Source: Thermoplasmata archaeon
Lineage (GTDB): Archaea > Thermoplasmatota > Thermoplasmata > Thermoplasmatales > GCA-001856825
Direction: 5' to 3'
NCBI GenBank assembly: GCA_021816725.1
Contig: JAKAXD010000001.1
Span: 186,001-250,000 of the forward strand
DNA: 64,000 nt
Positions 27,463-64,000 of this stretch are shown in pieces. Numbering within the stretch: position 1 is the stretch's first letter; the number at the start of each line of letters is the position of its first letter. Below the pieces are notes generated by a model that had not been told where the DNA came from, did no database searches, and saw only the letters and a list, made by a program, of their open reading frames with translations. The translations under genes were made by a program, and so were the position numbers.

Positions 27463-28368
27463 ATGTACTATATTACGGAAAGGGAAGTTTCAGATAATTT
27501 GGATATGAAAGCTGCAGTTGGACTGATAAGGGAAGCTTTTGAGGAGTATTATAAAGGAAATGCTGGAGCGGATCCACGTCAAAGAACGTATTCAGGCCCT
27601 GCAGTTCTAAGCACCATGCCTGCTTTTATGAATAAATACCAAATATCAGGCCTTAAATCATACATTGGGACAAAGAATGGTGCAAAGTTCGTAGTTTTGC
27701 TGTTCGATACGGAGTCAACCGATCTCCTAGCGGTGGTAGAAGCGGAAAAACTTGGACAGATCAGGACAGGGGCGGTAACTGCATTAGCAACATCAATACT
27801 CCATGACAAATGTTCTGTATTCACTTTAATCGGCTCAGGATTTCAAGCGGAGACGCAGCTCGAAGGAATTCTGAGTGTTTCTGACCCCATTGAAATAAGG
27901 GTGTATTCAAGGACAGCATCTCATAGCAAGAGTTTCGCTCAAAGAATGAGCAAGAAATTTGGCCGGGAAATTAAGGACTATAGTGACTTAGGCAAGGCAC
28001 TTTACAATGCAGATGTAATTACTTGCATTACTTCATCCTACGAGCCTATAATTAAGGACCTTTCATTCTCGGGAAGGTACCACCTTAACATTGCGGGTTC
28101 TAACATCCTCGCTAGAAGAGAGGTTTCTGAAGCAGTGATTAGGGATGCCAACCTTGTAGTAGTTGAGCACCTGGAACAGGCGCTTAGAGAGTCCTCAGAG
28201 ATTTCAGACTTCGTCAATGGAGGTGGTAAGCCAGTTGAGTTTAAGGAGGTAGTGGGTGAAAGTCAAAAATTCAGCCATTTAAGAAAGACAATTTTCAAGA
28301 CGATGGGAATAGGACTGGAGGACATTATCTGCGCTTGGTACGTGCTGGATAAAATGAATCTGGTATGA
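27463..28368 (+). CDS. Ornithine cyclodeaminase / mu-crystallin family reductase
   Basis: 301 residues. Family features: an N-terminal domain with STMPAF and KSYIGTKNGAKFVVLLFDTES, the segment EAEKLGQIRTGAVTALAT, and a Rossmann nucleotide site LIGSGFQAETQ followed by IEIRVYSRT. Members include ornithine cyclodeaminase, alanine dehydrogenase and delta-1-pyrroline-2-carboxylate reductase. The next gene is an FAD amino-acid oxidoreductase, which fits an imino-acid reductase working with an amino-acid dehydrogenase. A TATA-like GTCTATA about 25 nt upstream supports the ATG at 27463. Confidence 0.88.
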   Translation: MYYITEREVSDNLDMKAAVGLIREAFEEYYKGNAGADPRQRTYSGPAVLSTMPAFMNKYQISGLKSYIGTKNGAKFVVLLFDTESTDLLAVVEAEKLGQIRTGAVTALATSILHDKCSVFTLIGSGFQAETQLEGILSVSDPIEIRVYSRTASHSKSFAQRMSKKFGREIKDYSDLGKALYNADVITCITSSYEPIIKDLSFSGRYHLNIAGSNILARREVSEAVIRDANLVVVEHLEQALRESSEISDFVNGGGKPVEFKEVVGESQKFSHLRKTIFKTMGIGLEDIICAWYVLDKMNLV

Positions 28369-55306: not shown

Positions 55307-55422
55307 AATTTTGTAATCTTAAAGGGCAATTTAACTGTTAATATCATGGAAGGTCGGCTTTATGAGTAGTGCACCCCGTTCAAAAACTAATAATTCTATA
55401 ATTACATTATTACTTGATTATT

Positions 55423-57075
55423 ATGGCTACTGAGATTCATGCACCTACCGGAAAAAAATTGAATACTAAAGGATGGCAACAAGAAGCGGCTTTAAGGTTG
55501 CTTATGAACAATCTTGACCCCATGGTTGCAAAGGACCCTGCAAATCTTATCGTTTATGGTGGGAAAGGGAAAGCCGCTAGAAACTGGGAAGCTTTTCATA
55601 AGATAGTGGATGCCCTGAAGAATTTGGAAAAAGACGAAACTCTTCTGATCCAGTCCGGTAAACCGGTTGGTATTTTCAAGACTTTTGAAAATTCTCCTAG
55701 GGTCCTTATAGTAAACGCACAGATCGTGCCTAGATGGGCAACTGATGACATATTCTGGGACCTAGAAGCTAGAGGACTGACTATGTTCGGCCAGATGACA
55801 GCAGGGTCCTGGATATATATAGGTACCCAGGGCGTTCTTCAGGGAACTTATGAAACACTTTCCGCCTTGTCTAGGAAGGAATACAACACAGATTCCCTAA
55901 AGGGAAAGTGGGTTCTTTCGTCGGGGCTTGGTGAAATGGGAGGTGCACAGCCTCTCGCAATAAAAATGAATGGAGGGGTTGCCATTGTTGTAGAGGTAGA
56001 CAAGGATAAGATAAACAGGAGACTCAGGGACAAGTACCTAGATAGGTGGACCGATTCACTAGATGAAGCTTTGAAGTGGAAAGATGAATCAATTGCAGCA
56101 GGAACAAATGAATCTATAGGTGTCCTAGGAAATGCAGCGACCGTATATGGCGAACTTGTGGAAAGAAATATAGTTCCAGACATTGTGACAGATCAGACCG
56201 CAGCCCACGATCTCAATGTTGGATACATACCTGAAGGATATTCAGTAAGGTCTGCCGATGAGTTCAGGAAGAAAAACCCCGAAGAATATAAGGAGAAGGT
56301 TTATGAGAGCATAGTCAAGGAAGTCAGGGCGATAGTCTGGTTCAAGGACAATGGTGCAAAGACATTTGATTACGGAAATAACCTAAGAACCAGGGCGAAG
56401 GAACACGGCTACGATAGGGCATTCGAAATACCAGGTTACGTGCCGGCTTATCTCAGAGACCTATTCGCTATAGGCTCAGGTCCATTTCGGTGGGTTGCAC
56501 TTTCTGGCGACCCTGAAGATATATTTGCAATAGACGATGCAATAATCTCTAAATTCAAGAACGATGAGCACCTCGTAAAGTGGATTAAACTCGCGAAGAA
56601 CGAGGTTCATTTCCAGGGCCTTCCAGCAAGAATATGTTACGCAAAATACGGTCAGAGGGAAGAGATAGGGCTCCTAATAAACGACATGGTTAGGGAAGGC
56701 AGGCTGGGAGCCCCTGTAGCAATCGGGCGAGATCACCACGACACGGGTTCAGTTGCTTCCCCTTTCAGGGAAACTGAGAGGATGAAGGATGGTAGCGATG
56801 CAATAGCCGACTGGCCGATTCTTAACGCACTATTGAATGCAGTTTCTGGCGCATCTTGGGTGAGTGTCCATCATGGAGGCGGTGTTGGAATAGGTAATAG
56901 TATTCATTCAGGCTTGGTAATAGTAGCAGATGGGACAAACGATGCAGAGGAGAGAATTAAAAGGGTACTGAATGCTGACCCCGGTTCTGGCGTCATCAGA
57001 CACGCAGATGCTGGATATGAAGATTCCATTAATCTTATAAAGAAAGGAGTCAAATTCAAGACTCCATATTTTTGA
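55423..57075 (+). CDS. hutU: Urocanate hydratase
   Basis: About 550 residues. Canonical segments: [73 protein letters not shown] and [23 protein letters not shown]. It uses tightly bound NAD to hydrate urocanate to imidazolonepropionate in histidine catabolism. The frame opens at TTG 55414, but a TATA-like TCTATAATTA centred about 25 nt before ATG 55423 favours that start. The arginase-family gene follows 18 nt later; histidase and imidazolonepropionase are not in the window. Confidence 0.96.
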
Positions 57076-57093: not shown

Positions 57094-58062
57094 TTGCACA
57101 TGTTGGAACATGAGGATGACTGGGAATTCGAGAGGTGTAAATACACAGATAAATTCCGGGACCCTAACTCCACGTATACATCCGAAATGGTCAACAGTAG
57201 GTTTAAAAGAACAGACGTATCAATGATTGGAGTTCCTTATGACGGGGGAATACTGTCCCACAGGAGAGGAGCAAAACTGGCCCCGGATTTTATTAGGAAA
57301 TCGTTCTATAATTTTACCAATTATTGCTCCACTCACGAGACGGAATTATCAGGACTCAGTATCAGGGACTTTGGTGATCTTGCCTTAAGAAACAATGATA
57401 CAAATGTTTACGACCAAATACAAAGAGGTGTAACAAAATTTTCCAGATCTAGCAAAACGACTATAATTTTGGGCGGAGATCACTCCATTACCCTCCCCTC
57501 ATTTAATGGCATAAGAGCTCAGGAAAGAGATGCAAATGGTATCAATCTCTTGGTGATTGATCAGCACTATGACGTAAGGGATTACAATTTCGTAAATTCC
57601 GGATCCTGGTTAAGGCATTTACTATTGGACAAGAAGGCCAAACCAGATTCCACTGTGATTTTAGGATCACACGGATTCAGGTATCCAGAAAGTTACGCAA
57701 AATTTCTAAGAGACAACGGTGTCAAAACAATAAGTGGATATTACATTCACACTTATGGAATTAAAGAAGTCGTCAAGGAAGTAGTAAATACTATTGGAGG
57801 TAAAGGTCATGCATACCTTAGTGTTGATATCGATGCCGTAGATCAGGCATTTGCTCCTGCCTGCAGCGGAAGTTCACCAGGAGGGTTAATGTCATATGAG
57901 CTCCTTGAACTAGTAAGGGAATTGACCCAAAAGATAAGTTTGGATGGCATAGACATAACAGAATATTCTCCTCCATTTGACATAGGAGACATCACACAGA
58001 AGCTAGCAGCCTCGGTAATCATGGAGGTCTTATGCGGTGTCAGGTCCAAAACTAGAGTTTGA
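57094..58062 (+). CDS. hutG: Arginase/agmatinase-family hydrolase, probable formimidoylglutamase
   Basis: 322 residues. Mn2+-binding motifs are present: GGDHSITLP, DQHYDVRD (D-x-H-x-D) and SVDIDAVDQAFAPACSGSSPGG, the family signature. The family includes arginase, agmatinase and formimidoylglutamase. Immediately following urocanase (18 nt) argues for formimidoylglutamase, which makes glutamate from N-formimidoylglutamate, but the sequence cannot by itself exclude agmatinase. Convergent with the AcnX small subunit. Confidence 0.85.
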   Translation: MHMLEHEDDWEFERCKYTDKFRDPNSTYTSEMVNSRFKRTDVSMIGVPYDGGILSHRRGAKLAPDFIRKSFYNFTNYCSTHETELSGLSIRDFGDLALRNNDTNVYDQIQRGVTKFSRSSKTTIILGGDHSITLPSFNGIRAQERDANGINLLVIDQHYDVRDYNFVNSGSWLRHLLLDKKAKPDSTVILGSHGFRYPESYAKFLRDNGVKTISGYYIHTYGIKEVVKEVVNTIGGKGHAYLSVDIDAVDQAFAPACSGSSPGGLMSYELLELVRELTQKISLDGIDITEYSPPFDIGDITQKLAASVIMEVLCGVRSKTRV

Positions 58063-58080: not shown

Positions 58081-58515
58081 TTACTTGCTTTCTTCTACTG
58101 ATTCTACGAAGGTCAATTCTCTCCTTTGGCAGTCCAGTCTCAGTGAACCACCTTTCTTGGCCATAGACATAAATTCATCGTTTACGCCTGTCACTATAGG
58201 TACATCGCATATAATGGCAGCAGAAACGATGACAGGATCCGGATCCTTTACGACTATCATTGATGGTTGATTGTTACGTGTTAACAGTTGGTAAAGTCCA
58301 TCTAGTTGTACGACTGAGCTACCTTTTCCTGAGGGAATCACAAGAGCCTTTCCCTTGACTTTAATGCCCTTCAGTGGATGGTCGTCCTCTAGAATTTCCG
58401 AAGTAACAGGGTCGACTAAATAAAAATTAACCGACCTGTTCGAGAAAAGAACTTCTCCCTCAGTGTTTCCATTGCAAGCAGATTTTACCTTCTGTACGTA
58501 AGATTTTGCACTCAT
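58081..58515 (-). CDS. AcnX small subunit (DUF126)
   Basis: 144 residues. Swivel-domain fold of the aconitase X family: DPVTSEILEDDHPLKGIKVKGKALVIPSGKGSSV with the Gly/Ser-rich loop, then PSMIVVKDPDPVIVSAAIICDVPIVTG. It pairs with the large subunit encoded directly upstream (4-nt overlap). In archaea the AcnX heterodimer is known as phosphomevalonate dehydratase, in bacteria as cis-3-hydroxy-L-proline dehydratase. Confidence 0.9.
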   Translation of the reverse strand: MSAKSYVQKVKSACNGNTEGEVLFSNRSVNFYLVDPVTSEILEDDHPLKGIKVKGKALVIPSGKGSSVVQLDGLYQLLTRNNQPSMIVVKDPDPVIVSAAIICDVPIVTGVNDEFMSMAKKGGSLRLDCQRRELTFVESVEESK

Positions 58516-59720
58516 ATGTAACCCCTCACAGCAGCTTCTACAAGATTTTCAATAGTTGTAACCACAAATTCCTGATTTCTCCTCTTTCGATAATATGCAG
58601 CCTTGAGGGAATTCGTAGCTCCAAGGCCTCCTTCAGTAAACTTAAAGACCGGTTCATCAACACAGCTGTCCTGCATGACATAAACTCCTTTCGATGCAAG
58701 TTTCTTCACATTTTCTCCAAGAATCTTGAGGTTTGTTGCAGAAGTGAAGATAAGAAATTTAACATCGTCATTTACCTTCCTTCCATCAAGTAAGCGATTT
58801 ACTTTCATTATTTCCGGTATTGTGGAATGTGGGCAGCCTATGTATACCGAATTTATCTTTCCTCCCCTCTCCGTAAATTTTTTTCTGACTCTTTCCACGT
58901 CTTCAGACGTTACAGTTATTTTTTCTCTGCTTGTTACCCATAGAGAGGTATCTGAAATTCTCTTTACTTCCGGAGTGACACCTTCCAGGTGAAACAGGGA
59001 AACCGCACCAGATGTATTAATCATTGCACCGAAATCTCTGAGTCCTTCTTCCGTCATTTCGCTGCTGAGTCCTCTTATCAAGGGAACATCATCAGGTTTC
59101 AGAATTTCCCCAAGATACCATCCCAGCAAACCCATATCAAAATCATCTTTTATTTGGGCAGAAACATCAACTGTTATGTTTGGAACTCTATTCTTGTCTA
59201 AATGAAGACCGTAGTTTGGAGTCTTACCGATAACGCCAGCAGCAAGTGCGCTCGATGAACTTTCCCTGTTGGTCCTAGCCCCATATACCGAATTAATGTA
59301 AGGCGTGGCACTAGACTCAGAAAAGGCAGTATGTTCGCCGAATGAAGGAACGTCCTTATAGAGATAAGGAGTACAGTTAAAGCTCTTTATGACTCCGAGT
59401 TTATCTGATACTTCAATAGTCCTGTCCAAAAGGGACCTTTCATAGTCATCTATATCCACGTGAAATAGGTCTGAGAGGGACGAGTCCCATGCAGGATTTG
59501 TCGTAGTAACCACAGATACCCTGGCACCCGAATTTGCCAACTTTTCAGCAAAAAACAGGTCCCCTTCCTGACCACTGACGGCCCAATGAGCCCTTTTAAT
59601 CGGGATGAGCCTGTCGGCATCAAACATTTCCCCGAGCGAAACCAGCAATTTCATCGCATTAGATTTACCTATTCCAAAATTTCCGTTCAGAACATTCTCT
59701 TCCTCTGTGGTCAGCAACAT
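58512..59720 (-). CDS. AcnX large subunit (DUF521), dehydratase with Fe-S cluster
   Basis: About 402 residues from ATG 59720. Family features: LTTEEENVLNGNFG near the start, DADRLIPIKRAHWA, GKTPNYGLHLDKNRVPNITVDV, and a late YIGCPHSTIPE and MQDSCVDEP that carry cluster cysteines. The frame opens at 59738, but a TATA-like AAAAAATAAAG (59742-59752, minus strand) sets a leaderless start at 59720. The neighbouring amino-acid catabolic genes favour a hydroxy-amino-acid (hydroxyproline-type) dehydratase; phosphomevalonate dehydratase is the alternative, though members of this order are known for the mevalonate-3-kinase route instead. Confidence 0.88.
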   Translation of the reverse strand: MLLTTEEENVLNGNFGIGKSNAMKLLVSLGEMFDADRLIPIKRAHWAVSGQEGDLFFAEKLANSGARVSVVTTTNPAWDSSLSDLFHVDIDDYERSLLDRTIEVSDKLGVIKSFNCTPYLYKDVPSFGEHTAFSESSATPYINSVYGARTNRESSSSALAAGVIGKTPNYGLHLDKNRVPNITVDVSAQIKDDFDMGLLGWYLGEILKPDDVPLIRGLSSEMTEEGLRDFGAMINTSGAVSLFHLEGVTPEVKRISDTSLWVTSREKITVTSEDVERVRKKFTERGGKINSVYIGCPHSTIPEIMKVNRLLDGRKVNDDVKFLIFTSATNLKILGENVKKLASKGVYVMQDSCVDEPVFKFTEGGLGATNSLKAAYYRKRRNQEFVVTTIENLVEAAVRGYI

Positions 59721-59899: not shown

Positions 59900-60892
59900 T
59901 TAACAGTTCACACAACCTTCTGGTTTTCTATCAGTCAACATGCTGATTAGATTATTTGTTGCAAGATTCTTCAAATCTCTCATTGATTTATCTGAGATGT
60001 ATATGGAATGTGGGGTAACGAATACTCTATCCATGTTAATTAAAGGGTTGTTAACGTCAAGGGGTTCTGATAAGAAAACATCTAAAGCTGCGCCCCTTAA
60101 CTTCCCATCTTTCAAGGCGTCTATCAAAGCATTTTCATCAATGATTTTGCCCCGGGCGGCATTTATTATGTATGCAGTTTTCTTAACATAAGGGATATTT
60201 TTTGAATTTAATAGGGAAATTGATGAATCGTTTAATGAAGCTGTAATCGCTATAAAATCGGCACGTTTGAGGCCTTCTTCGAGGGTAACTCTCTCTTCGT
60301 TATTACTCGTAGCAGGAATGTTCGGGTCATAATATAAAACTCTCATGCCAAGGGCGGTACCCTTTTGTCCCACTAATTTTCCAATCTTTCCATATCCAAT
60401 TATGAAAAGTGTCGACCCATGGACTCGCTGTGGCAGTATGTCCATCTCCTCTACAGACCATTCATCTACTGGAATACTTGATATCGCCTTTGCTCCCCAA
60501 AAACCCTGCTTAGCACGTTTATTCAAGTATGTGAGCTTCTTTGAGAAGTTCAATATCATAGCTATTACATATTCCGCTACTTCGTGGTTACAGTAGTTAG
60601 GTGATCTTGAAACTTTTATTCCTAGAGCAGTGGCTGCATTTACATCAATATTATTATAACCCCCACCATAGACAGATATAGCCCTCAGAGTTTGAAACTG
60701 CTCCATGAATTTTTTATCAACTTGGAAATCGATTTGAACCAAAATCCCGACAACTCCTTCCCGGTGCTTAATGATTTCTTCCATTGAATAATCTAGCTCG
60801 ATTATCTTGATATCCTTCAGTTCACGCTCTAAAATTTCTTTCTCAATTTTGTGTTGATTAAATTCTTCATCGATTATTAGAATCTTCCTCAT
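59900..60892 (-). CDS. D-isomer-specific 2-hydroxyacid dehydrogenase
   Basis: 330 residues. Rossmann motif IGYGKIGKLVGQKG, catalytic Arg in NAARGKIID, Glu in the AALDVFLSEPL segment, and His in VTPHSIYISDKS. The family includes phosphoglycerate, glyoxylate and D-lactate dehydrogenases; no C-terminal ACT domain is present, so a serine-pathway PGDH of the regulated kind is unlikely. It stands among catabolic genes and probably reduces or oxidises a 2-keto/2-hydroxy acid from amino-acid breakdown. Confidence 0.9.
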   Translation of the reverse strand: MRKILIIDEEFNQHKIEKEILERELKDIKIIELDYSMEEIIKHREGVVGILVQIDFQVDKKFMEQFQTLRAISVYGGGYNNIDVNAATALGIKVSRSPNYCNHEVAEYVIAMILNFSKKLTYLNKRAKQGFWGAKAISSIPVDEWSVEEMDILPQRVHGSTLFIIGYGKIGKLVGQKGTALGMRVLYYDPNIPATSNNEERVTLEEGLKRADFIAITASLNDSSISLLNSKNIPYVKKTAYIINAARGKIIDENALIDALKDGKLRGAALDVFLSEPLDVNNPLINMDRVFVTPHSIYISDKSMRDLKNLATNNLISMLTDRKPEGCVNC

Positions 60893-61048: not shown

Positions 61049-62479
61049 TTAGAGAGTGAAGTCACCGATCTTCTTGAGTTTTTCTGGGTTTTTACTCTTG
61101 TAGTAGAAGTATGTGACTATCACAAATAATGCATATAATCCAGCAATCCATGCAGAATATTTAAGTGGGGCTGGAGGGGCTGGATAGACCACGTAGATTA
61201 TTGCAATGAAAATCATAATGGCAGTGACCCATGGTATGACTACGTGCCTAAATACCTTAAGGGTCTTATTCCTGTGGTGATAGACAGACAGTTCTAATCC
61301 TGCAAGTGCATGGTTGAAAAAGCTAAAGACCGAGTTGCTCAAAATTAGGAATATGCTTGCAATGAAAGGTCCCATTAGTATTCCTGCCACGATGGCTATG
61401 ATCAGAGAAAATACTCCCGTAAAAATAACAACATTCCCTGGAACCTTGTGCTTGTTTATTTTAGTGAACGACTTAGGGAAAAAGACTCCATCTCTTGCAT
61501 ATCCGTAAACAGTTCTAATAGTACTTGTTTCGAATGATACTCCTGAAGTGTTGAAGCTATTTATTACGAAAATTATAAGGAGTACACCACCAGCTAGCCC
61601 TAGATATTTAAGGTAAAGACTTACTCCCGGATCAGGCAAGGTAGCATAATTGAACATATTGTTGATTCCGAATAGAATAGTTTGGGAGTATGAATTCAAA
61701 AGTAAAGTAAATCCCACTATTGAAGCTAAAGTGACTAGGGCTATGGGTATATTCTTCTTGGGATTCTTAGTTTCCTCAGCAACAGGCACTATACTATTTA
61801 TTCCTCCAAAAGTTGCAATACCTAGCATCATAGCAACGAATATTAATGTAAAGTTATTTCCGACCGGAAGTGCAGTGAATACAACTCCAGTGTTCTTCCC
61901 TCCTCCAAGTATTATCATTATGATCGACGTAATCACTAGAAATATTACTTCTGCCATCCCCGTATAGAGTATATACCTCATTGAGATTTTAATTCCAAAA
62001 TAGGCAAGCGCAGTTGTCTCTGCAATGACTATAGTAATTATTGGAATCCATAGCCACGGATATTGAGAAGTTACAGAGGGAAAGAGAACATATAGGAATG
62101 AAGAAAGGCCTAGCATTGCAAATCCTGTGTATCCTAGCAGATAATAGTACCAGTAGGTCAATCCACCAAAGTAAGAGAAGAAACCTCCCAGTCGTTTGAA
62201 TCCCCTTTTGTGAAAGGCTGCCCAGGAGTACGCTGATGCGACTTCTTTAGACCATTCATAGGTTATAAGGGTCATTCCTGCATAAATCAAGAAGGCTAAA
62301 ATGAGAACGAATGGAAGACTTGCACCAACCAGTCCAGCGATGCTTACAAAAAATAGTGCGGTAACCGCAGCAGGACCATTAGTTCCAAGACCTTGTGCAA
62401 AAGCTTCCCACATGCTCAAGGTTCCAACAGCTAATCCAGATTTTTTAGGTTCGTCTACTTTTTCATTACCGTCAGCCAT
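61049..62479 (-). CDS. APC-superfamily amino-acid permease
   Basis: 476 residues with 12 hydrophobic segments. The N-terminal TM1 region SMWEAFAQGLGTNGPAAVTALF and the TM6-linked IATFGGINSIVPVAEETKNPKKNIP are typical of APC transporters. Its import substrate is probably an amino acid used by the surrounding catabolic genes. A TATA-like ACTTATATATG about 26 nt upstream of the ATG predicts a leaderless transcript. The 269 nt upstream (62480-62748) are AT-rich and hold only this promoter as far as I can see. Confidence 0.92.
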   Translation of the reverse strand: MADGNEKVDEPKKSGLAVGTLSMWEAFAQGLGTNGPAAVTALFFVSIAGLVGASLPFVLILAFLIYAGMTLITYEWSKEVASAYSWAAFHKRGFKRLGGFFSYFGGLTYWYYYLLGYTGFAMLGLSSFLYVLFPSVTSQYPWLWIPIITIVIAETTALAYFGIKISMRYILYTGMAEVIFLVITSIIMIILGGGKNTGVVFTALPVGNNFTLIFVAMMLGIATFGGINSIVPVAEETKNPKKNIPIALVTLASIVGFTLLLNSYSQTILFGINNMFNYATLPDPGVSLYLKYLGLAGGVLLIIFVINSFNTSGVSFETSTIRTVYGYARDGVFFPKSFTKINKHKVPGNVVIFTGVFSLIIAIVAGILMGPFIASIFLILSNSVFSFFNHALAGLELSVYHHRNKTLKVFRHVVIPWVTAIMIFIAIIYVVYPAPPAPLKYSAWIAGLYALFVIVTYFYYKSKNPEKLKKIGDFTL

Positions 62480-62748: not shown

Positions 62749-64000
62749 TTATTTGGTTGAGATCCACTTAGTAGCTCTTAGGAATTGCTCTACTTCAGCC
62801 AATGAATTATAATGTAGGAAAGTCACCCTAAGCATTGATGGGTTAGAATAATAGTCATGTGAGAGATTCCAGTGACTTCCACCTACGGTAGTAATTCCAA
62901 ATTTTTTCCAATATATCTCTTCTGCTTTCTTATCTGTCACATTCTTGAAATTGAATGAGAAAGTTGTGCCCCTTTCACTTAGTCGTTTAGAATCTGAGAT
63001 GCCGTAAAGGATGACATTCTTCATTGATGCCAGTCCTTCAGTCTCTTCTGTTCCATCCAGGATGAGTCGGCTCAGCTCTTTATGGTAGTTCTCAATTCTT
63101 TCCATCCCTTTCCTCACACCGTTTCTTCTATTCTTTGGTAATTTCCTTTTCTTGAATCGTGTAAGGTCCAAGGAAAGAGAGGAAATGTAATCTACAACTG
63201 AACTCATTGCTGAAAATATGCCCTGGTCTCTTGTTCCAATTTCGAAATATGAGCTGGCTCCTGGCATAGCCTCTCTATCCACATAGAATGGTCTCATACT
63301 GTCCAGAGCCCTATCGCTTATGTACGTGAAACTACCACGGGGGCCAAATATCTTGTAGGCTGAGAACACAAAGAAGTCACATCCCATGCTTTTAATGTCA
63401 GAGTACCCCTGTGGAGCAAAATGCACTCCATCAACTAGCAACAGGCTGTCATTTTCTACCGCGACCTTTGACAATTCGGGAATATTGACTTTGTTCCCCA
63501 GAAGATTACTCTCTGCTGTAATTGCGATTACCTTCGTTCTCCTGTTGACCAGGGATGCAAGATGATCCAAGTCCACAGTACCATCCTCTCTGTTCAGTTT
63601 AGCCAGCCTTAGCTCAGAAATCTTATTGCTCCTTTTCATTTCCAAATAAGGAGAAACGTTTGCGAAATGTTCTGCATACGATGAAACTACATTGCTATCC
63701 CGGTCGAAAATTCCTCTCAATGCATATGAAATTCTGAAGAAGAGATCTGATGCAGACTCTCCCTGATAGATGTTCAGCTCACTTGGAGCATCAAGGAGAT
63801 CAGCTACTGCTCTTCTTCCCTTCAGCAAGATGTTTTCATTTGCCTTTGACTCGTTATAGAGCGCATCCGTGTTAGCACTGTAATCTATTCGGCTTTTGCT
63901 CTCCGTCTTTGCTGCATCACCAAGAACCAGGCTCCCTGCCCCATTGTCTACAAAAATTCTCTTTCTGCCTGTGAAGTCTTTCTCAATCCTGGGAAATCTC
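62749..64000 (-). CDS. Class V (cysteine desulfurase-like) PLP aminotransferase, N-terminus outside window
   Basis: 417 residues are visible; the frame continues past the window edge, so the TTG-initiated shorter frame ending at 63828 is not the real start. Family features: FPRIEKDFTGRKRIFVDNGAG near the visible start, LLVDGVHFAPQGYSDIKSMGCDFFVFSAYKIFGPRG with the PLP-binding lysine in SAYK, and a C-terminal RVTFLHYNSLAEVEQFL. It resembles the SufS/CsdA-like branch, but the catalytic cysteine loop of desulfurases is not evident, so an aminotransferase, lyase or selenocysteine-lyase-like role is possible. Confidence 0.87.
   Translation of the reverse strand, partial: RFPRIEKDFTGRKRIFVDNGAGSLVLGDAAKTESKSRIDYSANTDALYNESKANENILLKGRRAVADLLDAPSELNIYQGESASDLFFRISYALRGIFDRDSNVVSSYAEHFANVSPYLEMKRSNKISELRLAKLNREDGTVDLDHLASLVNRRTKVIAITAESNLLGNKVNIPELSKVAVENDSLLLVDGVHFAPQGYSDIKSMGCDFFVFSAYKIFGPRGSFTYISDRALDSMRPFYVDREAMPGASSYFEIGTRDQGIFSAMSSVVDYISSLSLDLTRFKKRKLPKNRRNGVRKGMERIENYHKELSRLILDGTEETEGLASMKNVILYGISDSKRLSERGTTFSFNFKNVTDKKAEEIYWKKFGITTVGGSHWNLSHDYYSNPSMLRVTFLHYNSLAEVEQFLRATKWISTK

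Follow-up and report, generated by a model that had tools for sequence, protein, structure and literature searches.

The two adjoining AcnX genes of the window (the whole 64,000-nucleotide stretch of Thermoplasmata DNA analysed here) probably encode a heterodimeric, [4Fe-4S]-type AcnX enzyme that belongs to a clade of its own and removes water from a 2-hydroxy acid; judged from sequence and gene context, the substrate is most likely imidazolelactate, which would be converted to urocanate. A broader proposal, which we also consider probable, with somewhat less confidence, is that an aminotransferase, a 2-hydroxyacid dehydrogenase (2HADH) and AcnX together give Archaea and anaerobic Bacteria an entry into histidine degradation that is independent of histidine ammonia-lyase (HutH), runs via imidazolelactate and uses neither CoA nor radicals, and that repeated exchanges between this module and HutH have taken place. 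The clade would be a functionally new branch of a known family, and the reading yields a strong, testable prediction. The genes concerned are as follows.

27463-28368, plus strand: ornithine-cyclodeaminase-like gene
55414-57075, plus strand: urocanase HutU (TIGR01228, 953.7 bits, cut-off 375)
57094-58062, plus strand: HutG-like formimidoylglutamase of the arginase family (PF00491 above cut-off; TIGR01227 157.6 bits, below the cut-off of 229.15)
58081-58515, minus strand: AcnX small (swivel) subunit, 144 aa (PF01989, AcnX_swivel, 80.3 bits, cut-off 27)
58512-59720, minus strand: AcnX large (catalytic) subunit, 402 aa (PF04412, 400.6 bits, cut-off 31.5)
59900-60892, minus strand: D-2-hydroxyacid dehydrogenase, 2HADH (PF02826 and PF00389)
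61049-62479, minus strand: amino-acid permease (PF00324 and PF13520; the I-plasma copy is 98% identical)
62749-63999, minus strand: class-V PLP enzyme (PF00266; nearest model TIGR01976, under its cut-off), running past the window end

Membership of the AcnX family is indicated by the catalytic and swivel domains, both of which score above their curated Pfam cut-offs. The two genes overlap by 4 bp in an ATGA shared by the large-subunit stop and the small-subunit start, and the conserved start of the large subunit is the ATG at 59720, in a frame that is open from 59738. Among solved structures, the large subunit matches TkAcnX (7CNR) with an E value of 2.6e-71, AtAcnX being the next match; NCBIfam model NF051439 is a distant match (206 bits against a cut-off of 700). 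HutU and the HutG-like gene are convergent with the AcnX pair, and 2HADH, the permease and the class-V PLP enzyme lie upstream of AcnX on its own strand; profile matches account for every neighbour named in an earlier, sequence-only reading (histidine genes, permease, 2-hydroxyacid dehydrogenase and PLP enzyme). By profile score the window HutU is a clear hutU, and a second copy, 82% identical to it, lies elsewhere in the same genome (L085). We propose that the 2HADH at 59900-60892 serves as an imidazolepyruvate reductase and that the permease at 61049-62479 takes up histidine or a related compound; the class-V PLP enzyme could be the aminotransferase of the pathway or a racemase.

The block is syntenic in Thermoplasmatales archaeon I-plasma (G006), a member of the same genus, with 93% identity for the large AcnX subunit, 83% for the small subunit and 86% for 2HADH. 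The 2HADH gene adjoins AcnX in the window, in I-plasma and in G002, and as a partial ORF in G015. The I-plasma HutU next to AcnX is split into two overlapping frames (L039 10101-11060 and 10936-11754), reflecting a frameshift or an assembly error; the window copy reads through. No match turned up when E. coli genomes were searched at the nucleotide level.

We placed the enzyme in a maximum-likelihood tree of 61 AcnX large subunits, in which long branches are flagged for several rows; alignments shorter than 250 residues were dropped, and row set A3 omits L052, which is almost a duplicate of L051, as well as the additional AcnX found in L054. The window sequence falls in a clade of 21 rows with support of 100/99, made up of Thermoplasmata, Synergistota, one Tepidanaerobacteraceae, two Bathyarchaeota and one Nitrososphaerales MAG. 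Phosphomevalonate dehydratase (PMDh) forms a separate clade of 29 rows, also supported at 100/99, and five type I rows join two plasmid-borne two-gene rows, which we took as type IIa, in a third group (100/100). Four further plasmid-borne bacterial rows branch beside the window clade. Tree placement, the check that the sequence-only reading had put forward, therefore groups the window AcnX neither with PMDh nor with type I or its two-gene relatives. PMC8184944, a paper from 2021, describes AcnX types IIc to IIf as lacking the landmark residues of both known activities and awaiting characterisation; the window clade may equal one of these. Synergistota also hold a second AcnX subclade (L054 3257-4315, L161, L162), at times in one run with the first; having both copies might allow two enantiomers, or a sulfur analogue, to be handled.

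Residue positions given for TkAcnX and AtAcnX in PMC8184944 were mapped by alignment onto the window clade. Cys122, Cys302 and Cys359 of the window large subunit align with Tk Cys110, Cys283 and Cys342 and are, by alignment, the cluster ligands; Cys122 and Cys302 are present in 21/21 rows and Cys359 in 20/21, the remaining row being truncated at this position. Glu141 is likewise found in all 21 rows, Lys379 and Tyr383 in 20 (the remaining row is again truncated there), and Asn81, Ser142 and Ser143 are also kept. In the small subunit, Ser66 (the general base by alignment), Ser67 and Tyr32 each occur in all 36 clade sequences, Tyr32 occupying the position of type I Trp35 and PMDh Leu27. The phosphate-binding loop of PMDh (Tk Gly48, Val49, Ser50, Asn53) is missing; its place is taken by a shortened loop with Ser55, Gly56 and Gln57, part of a motif R-A-H-x-A-x-S-G-Q-E-G-D in which Arg49, His51, Ala53, Ser55, Gln57 and Asp60 are invariant (21/21 rows). 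Given that the cysteines and catalytic residues are kept and the loop is replaced, we conclude that the Fe-S dehydration machinery is retained and the pocket altered.

These residues bear directly on the two activities already described for the family. A PMDh paralogue would be expected to look like the window enzyme in its cluster cysteines and carboxylate-binding residues, which are as in TkAcnX, and in its 40% identity to the PMDh of the same genome. Its position outside the PMDh clade, the loss of the phosphate-loop residues, the bacterial (Synergistota) members of its clade and the canonical PMDh elsewhere in the genome all argue the other way. We conclude that the window AcnX is probably not PMDh, as the sequence-only reading had suspected; tree, pocket residues and separate PMDh rule out the paralogue, to which we give next to no weight. 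The same reading had favoured a cis-3-hydroxy-L-proline or other hydroxy-amino-acid dehydratase. This suggestion fits the rank of AtAcnX as the next solved match after TkAcnX, the distant match to NF051439 and the amino-acid permease nearby, but it founders on the landmark residues, Asp203, Thr72 and Trp35 of AtAcnX being replaced by Ala53, Val68 and Tyr32, on the placement of type I in another clade, and on gene partners that are 2-hydroxyacid enzymes. Landmark residues and gene context rule it out, and we regard it as very unlikely.

The second AcnX of the window's genome lies on another contig (L001) and groups with the Thermococcus enzyme in the PMDh clade; the genome also encodes a mevalonate kinase above the TIGR00549 cut-off and a UbiD-family decarboxylase above the TIGR00148 cut-off. 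Given these three genes, the other AcnX copy appears to serve the archaeal modified mevalonate pathway in this lineage, which lends no support to the premise of the sequence-only reading that the lineage relies on mevalonate 3-kinase. Among 61 genomes compared, four (G000, G002, G006 and G015) have an AcnX at least 49% identical to that of the window. The other full-length AcnX proteins of the set are 34-41% identical to it; the tree includes 26 of these, all of which fall in the PMDh clade, as does the second copy of the window's genome.

In the window's genome (C12; L001 707-1492), a C-terminal NUDIX domain (PF00293 above cut-off) is fused to the small subunit of the PMDh-type AcnX, and the same fusion occurs in G015 (L043 908-1693). 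Since NUDIX is the fold of type-1 IPP isomerase as well, the fusion may matter for isoprenoid synthesis. In G015, a Thermoplasmata MAG, three contigs (L042, L043 and L044), two of them short and one of 12 kb, carry AcnX matches, which are of at least two kinds; contamination is possible there.

Gene partners were sought with labelled proteins by tblastn around 36 window-clade loci and 40 PMDh control loci; the tree includes 27 of the latter, and the remaining 13 (L136-L148) were assigned to PMDh by score alone. A 2-hydroxyacid enzyme lies within 1.5 kb of AcnX, the full extent of the PMDh-locus flanks, in 28/36 clade loci versus 0/40 PMDh loci. Within 6 kb, such an enzyme accompanies AcnX at 35 of the 36 clade loci (34 without a partial 2HADH match in L066), the sole exception being L061. 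The tallies within this distance overlap, several loci holding more than one 2-hydroxyacid enzyme: 2HADH is found at 16 loci (L066 partial), a LarA-type racemase at 18, GlcD at three, LDH/MDH at two and LhgO at one, alongside aminotransferases at 11, TRAP genes at 19 and Hut genes at eight. G431 and the Nitrososphaerales locus have a dehydrogenase of LDH/MDH type, not D-type. Partner labels come from our own reference set. On model checks, HutI scored above cut-off in 5/5 loci tested (L054, L071, L161, L181, L185), HutH in L054, L161 and L086, and FTCD in the one tested; the L049 protein labelled LhgO is closest to L-2-hydroxyglutarate oxidase but reaches only 224 of the 299 bits required, and a fragment in L051 labelled ETF-beta had no match. 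A LarA homologue beside AcnX at L062 (9694-10920) scores 510 bits, against a cut-off of 400, with the NCBIfam model for group 22 nickel-pincer isomerases; the model name gives no substrate, and imidazolelactate is a candidate.

The link to amino-acid catabolism drawn in the sequence-only reading holds, and specifically for histidine genes. Its further idea, that the imino-acid reductase-like gene at 27.5 kb might act on the AcnX product, found no support: this ornithine-cyclodeaminase-like gene lies about 30 kb away, no tie to AcnX was found within the window's own genome, and the recurrent partners are 2-hydroxyacid enzymes. Overall, that reading was right to doubt PMDh and to look to amino-acid catabolism; it fails on the hydroxyproline substrate, given the landmark residues and the gene context, and on the mevalonate premise, given the canonical PMDh.

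In a Tepidanaerobacteraceae MAG (G063; L053), one strand carries a run made up of 2HADH, the large and small AcnX subunits, a sodium:solute symporter, HutU, a regulator of AraC type, another HutU, FTCD, HutI and a cyclodeaminase of FTCD_C type; a search of this genome for PF00221, the HutH family, gave no match. Two Synergistota genomes (G089 and G090) have HutH, a second-subclade AcnX, HutU, 2HADH, HutI, a cyclodeaminase, FTCD, a window-type AcnX and TRAP genes in one run. The urocanases beside second-subclade AcnX at L054 and L161 score almost equally with the models for hutU (above cut-off) and S-methyl thiourocanate hydratase (below cut-off), so a sulfur-bearing analogue is a possible substrate at these two loci. 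A class-I aminotransferase flanks the 2HADH-AcnX unit in five of the seven Bathyarchaeia genomes with window-type AcnX, and a single example that was analysed has the aromatic aminotransferase 1DJU as its nearest match in sequence. The window has no class-I aminotransferase beside AcnX, and there the class-V PLP enzyme may play this part.

The distribution of AcnX and HutH was compared across 201 Bathyarchaeia genomes, 55 of which have HutU above cut-off (two sub-cut-off urocanase matches, in G290 and G374, were left out, so that 55 of 57 were kept). Window-type AcnX, classed by a bit score of at least 600 (the next best score is 389), occurs in seven of the genomes, six of them with HutU. Among the HutU-bearing genomes, PF00221 is found in none of the six with this AcnX versus 48 of the 49 without it (Fisher p = 2.4e-7; the test ignores kinship, and the genomes are of unstated completeness). 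G428 counts among the 48 by a PF00221 fragment, and G433 is the one genome of the 49 that has no PF00221. The seventh AcnX-bearing genome, G447, has no HutU, and its PF00221 match is also a fragment, with an internal stop. Ten PF00221 genes from HutU-bearing genomes without this AcnX (from 12 fetched) score as HutH, eight above TIGR01225 and two shorter frames above NF006871 only. The unstated completeness weakens the comparison, yet in G431, for example, HutU and AcnX lie on contigs as long as 634 kb and 608 kb, respectively. A HutU tree of 15 of the 55 genomes requires four changes by parsimony to account for the AcnX bearers, at least two of which are forced by supported branches, indicating that the AcnX distribution does not go back to one ancestral event.

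Across 185 Synergistota genomes, HutU is found in 112 and PF00221 in 116. AcnX copies were classed here by bit score as window-type (at least 640) or second-subclade (391-552), lower scores being left out. HutU is present in 29/30 genomes with window-type AcnX versus 83/155 without it (p = 2.3e-6, again regardless of kinship and with completeness unstated), and it lies within 20 kb of 6/30 window-type and 9/22 second-subclade copies, the others being farther away or on another contig. Seven HutU-bearing Synergistota genomes have no PF00221; given that clade AcnX is present in only three of these, we conclude that there is no AcnX-HutH complementarity in this phylum. A HutH match is present in the window's genome and in those of I-plasma and G002, so AcnX does not replace HutH there, and the notion that AcnX always substitutes for a missing HutH is ruled out. 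We keep it for Bathyarchaeia and G063 only and, more weakly, for G015, G065, G080 and G222. HutU also occurs with neither HutH nor this AcnX in G433, G086, G094, G172 and G216, and, in the window's genus, with neither PF00221 nor this AcnX in G004 (76% complete) and G005 (87% complete). Clade AcnX occurs without HutU in G070, G104, G227 and G447.

The main competitor to imidazolelactate is some other amino-acid-derived 2-hydroxy acid, such as a malate-like compound, 2-hydroxyglutarate, or phenyllactate or another aryllactate, with the Hut genes mere neighbours because the organisms ferment amino acids, including histidine. Many Synergistota AcnX loci have LarA-type racemases and TRAP transporters and no Hut gene nearby, so another 2-hydroxy acid is possible there; these partners suit the uptake and use of an external 2-hydroxy acid, without naming it. 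In addition, the best-scoring model for the L054 LarA, though below its cut-off, is one for malate racemase, and GlcD-like and ETF-alpha genes adjoin AcnX in L051 and L052. However, the HutH complementarity in Bathyarchaeia puts AcnX upstream of HutU, HutU accompanies nearly every window-type AcnX in Synergistota, and in the Tepidanaerobacteraceae MAG the two genes for AcnX and that for 2HADH accompany a Hut set complete except for HutH. On this evidence we judge another substrate unlikely, although it carries more weight than any other alternative to imidazolelactate dehydration.

The same genomes inform the direction of the reaction. Aconitase-type reactions are reversible, and PMDh was assayed as a hydration according to PMC10040528, so the enzyme might instead hydrate urocanate to imidazolelactate, to be oxidised and transaminated towards histidine, or excreted. 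This would sit poorly with the six Bathyarchaeia genomes that have HutU and AcnX and no HutH match, in three of which (L072, L185 and L186) HutU has HutI and FTCD nearby and needs a supply of urocanate. We consider the reverse direction very unlikely compared with dehydration of imidazolelactate.

From these features we infer a substrate, stereochemistry, direction and chemistry for the preferred reading. The aminotransferase would convert histidine to imidazolepyruvate, the 2-hydroxyacid dehydrogenase would reduce this to imidazolelactate, and AcnX would dehydrate imidazolelactate to urocanate, which would enter the Hut pathway from HutU onward without an ammonia-lyase. Within AcnX, Ser66 of the small subunit may deprotonate the CH2 adjacent to the imidazole, the imidazolium acting as electron sink, while the open iron would take the 2-hydroxyl with the assistance of Lys379 and Glu141. 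The imidazolium would then have to do what the carboxylate does in both AcnX reactions known so far; alternatively, the substrate might bind like isocitrate in aconitase. In the window's genome, where HutH is kept, AcnX could provide a parallel route or salvage imidazolelactate. The route would use NADH and retain the amino group in glutamate, perhaps an advantage for anaerobes that live by fermentation.

An AcnX clade for which we found no described function thus gains a concrete and easily tested substrate candidate. Among the titles and abstract openings listed from the literature, none ties AcnX to imidazolelactate or urocanate, and some AcnX and LarA texts gave no match for 'urocan'. If the proposal is true, it adds a third activity to the AcnX family and explains histidine use by urocanase-bearing archaea that have no histidine ammonia-lyase; if the chemistry holds, an alpha-hydroxy acid is dehydrated without CoA or radicals. 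For annotation, the modified mevalonate pathway should not be assigned to an archaeon on the strength of an AcnX gene alone. The Synergistota members of the clade include Fretibacterium fastidiosum, an oral species.

Compared with PMDh (AcnX IIb; TkAcnX, 7CNR/7CNS, and the Aeropyrum pernix enzyme), the window AcnX has the same two-gene architecture and cysteine triad; the general base Ser62 of TkAcnX corresponds to Ser66, and Glu129, Ser130, Lys361 and Tyr365 also have window equivalents. It differs in its separate clade, its shortened and replaced phosphate loop, its Tyr32 in place of Leu27 and the partnering of its clade with 2-hydroxyacid and Hut genes. With type I (AtAcnX) it has in common the fold, the general-base Ser, the first cluster cysteine, the active-site Glu, Lys and Tyr, and a catabolic gene context, but its cluster cysteines follow the PMDh pattern, it has no equivalents of Asp203, Thr72 and Trp35, it belongs to another clade, and it is encoded by two genes, whereas type I is encoded by one. 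Known AcnX enzymes take the proton from a carboxylate-bearing carbon, whereas imidazolelactate would require its removal from the imidazole-bearing carbon, a point that counts against the proposal.

HutH acts on histidine itself with an MIO group. HutH (PF00221) and AcnX have no homology; in the proposal they would have in common the product, urocanate feeding HutU, which the AcnX route would reach in three steps of transamination, reduction and dehydration. In the clostridial reductive pathway for aromatic amino acids, an aryllactate is converted to an arylacrylate, with FldH and FldBC as the enzymes. The logic is the same, combining an aminotransferase, a 2-hydroxyacid dehydrogenase and a dehydratase; however, the clostridial dehydratase is a CoA-dependent radical enzyme, whereas here, if the proposal holds, an aconitase-type Fe-S enzyme would act on the free acid.
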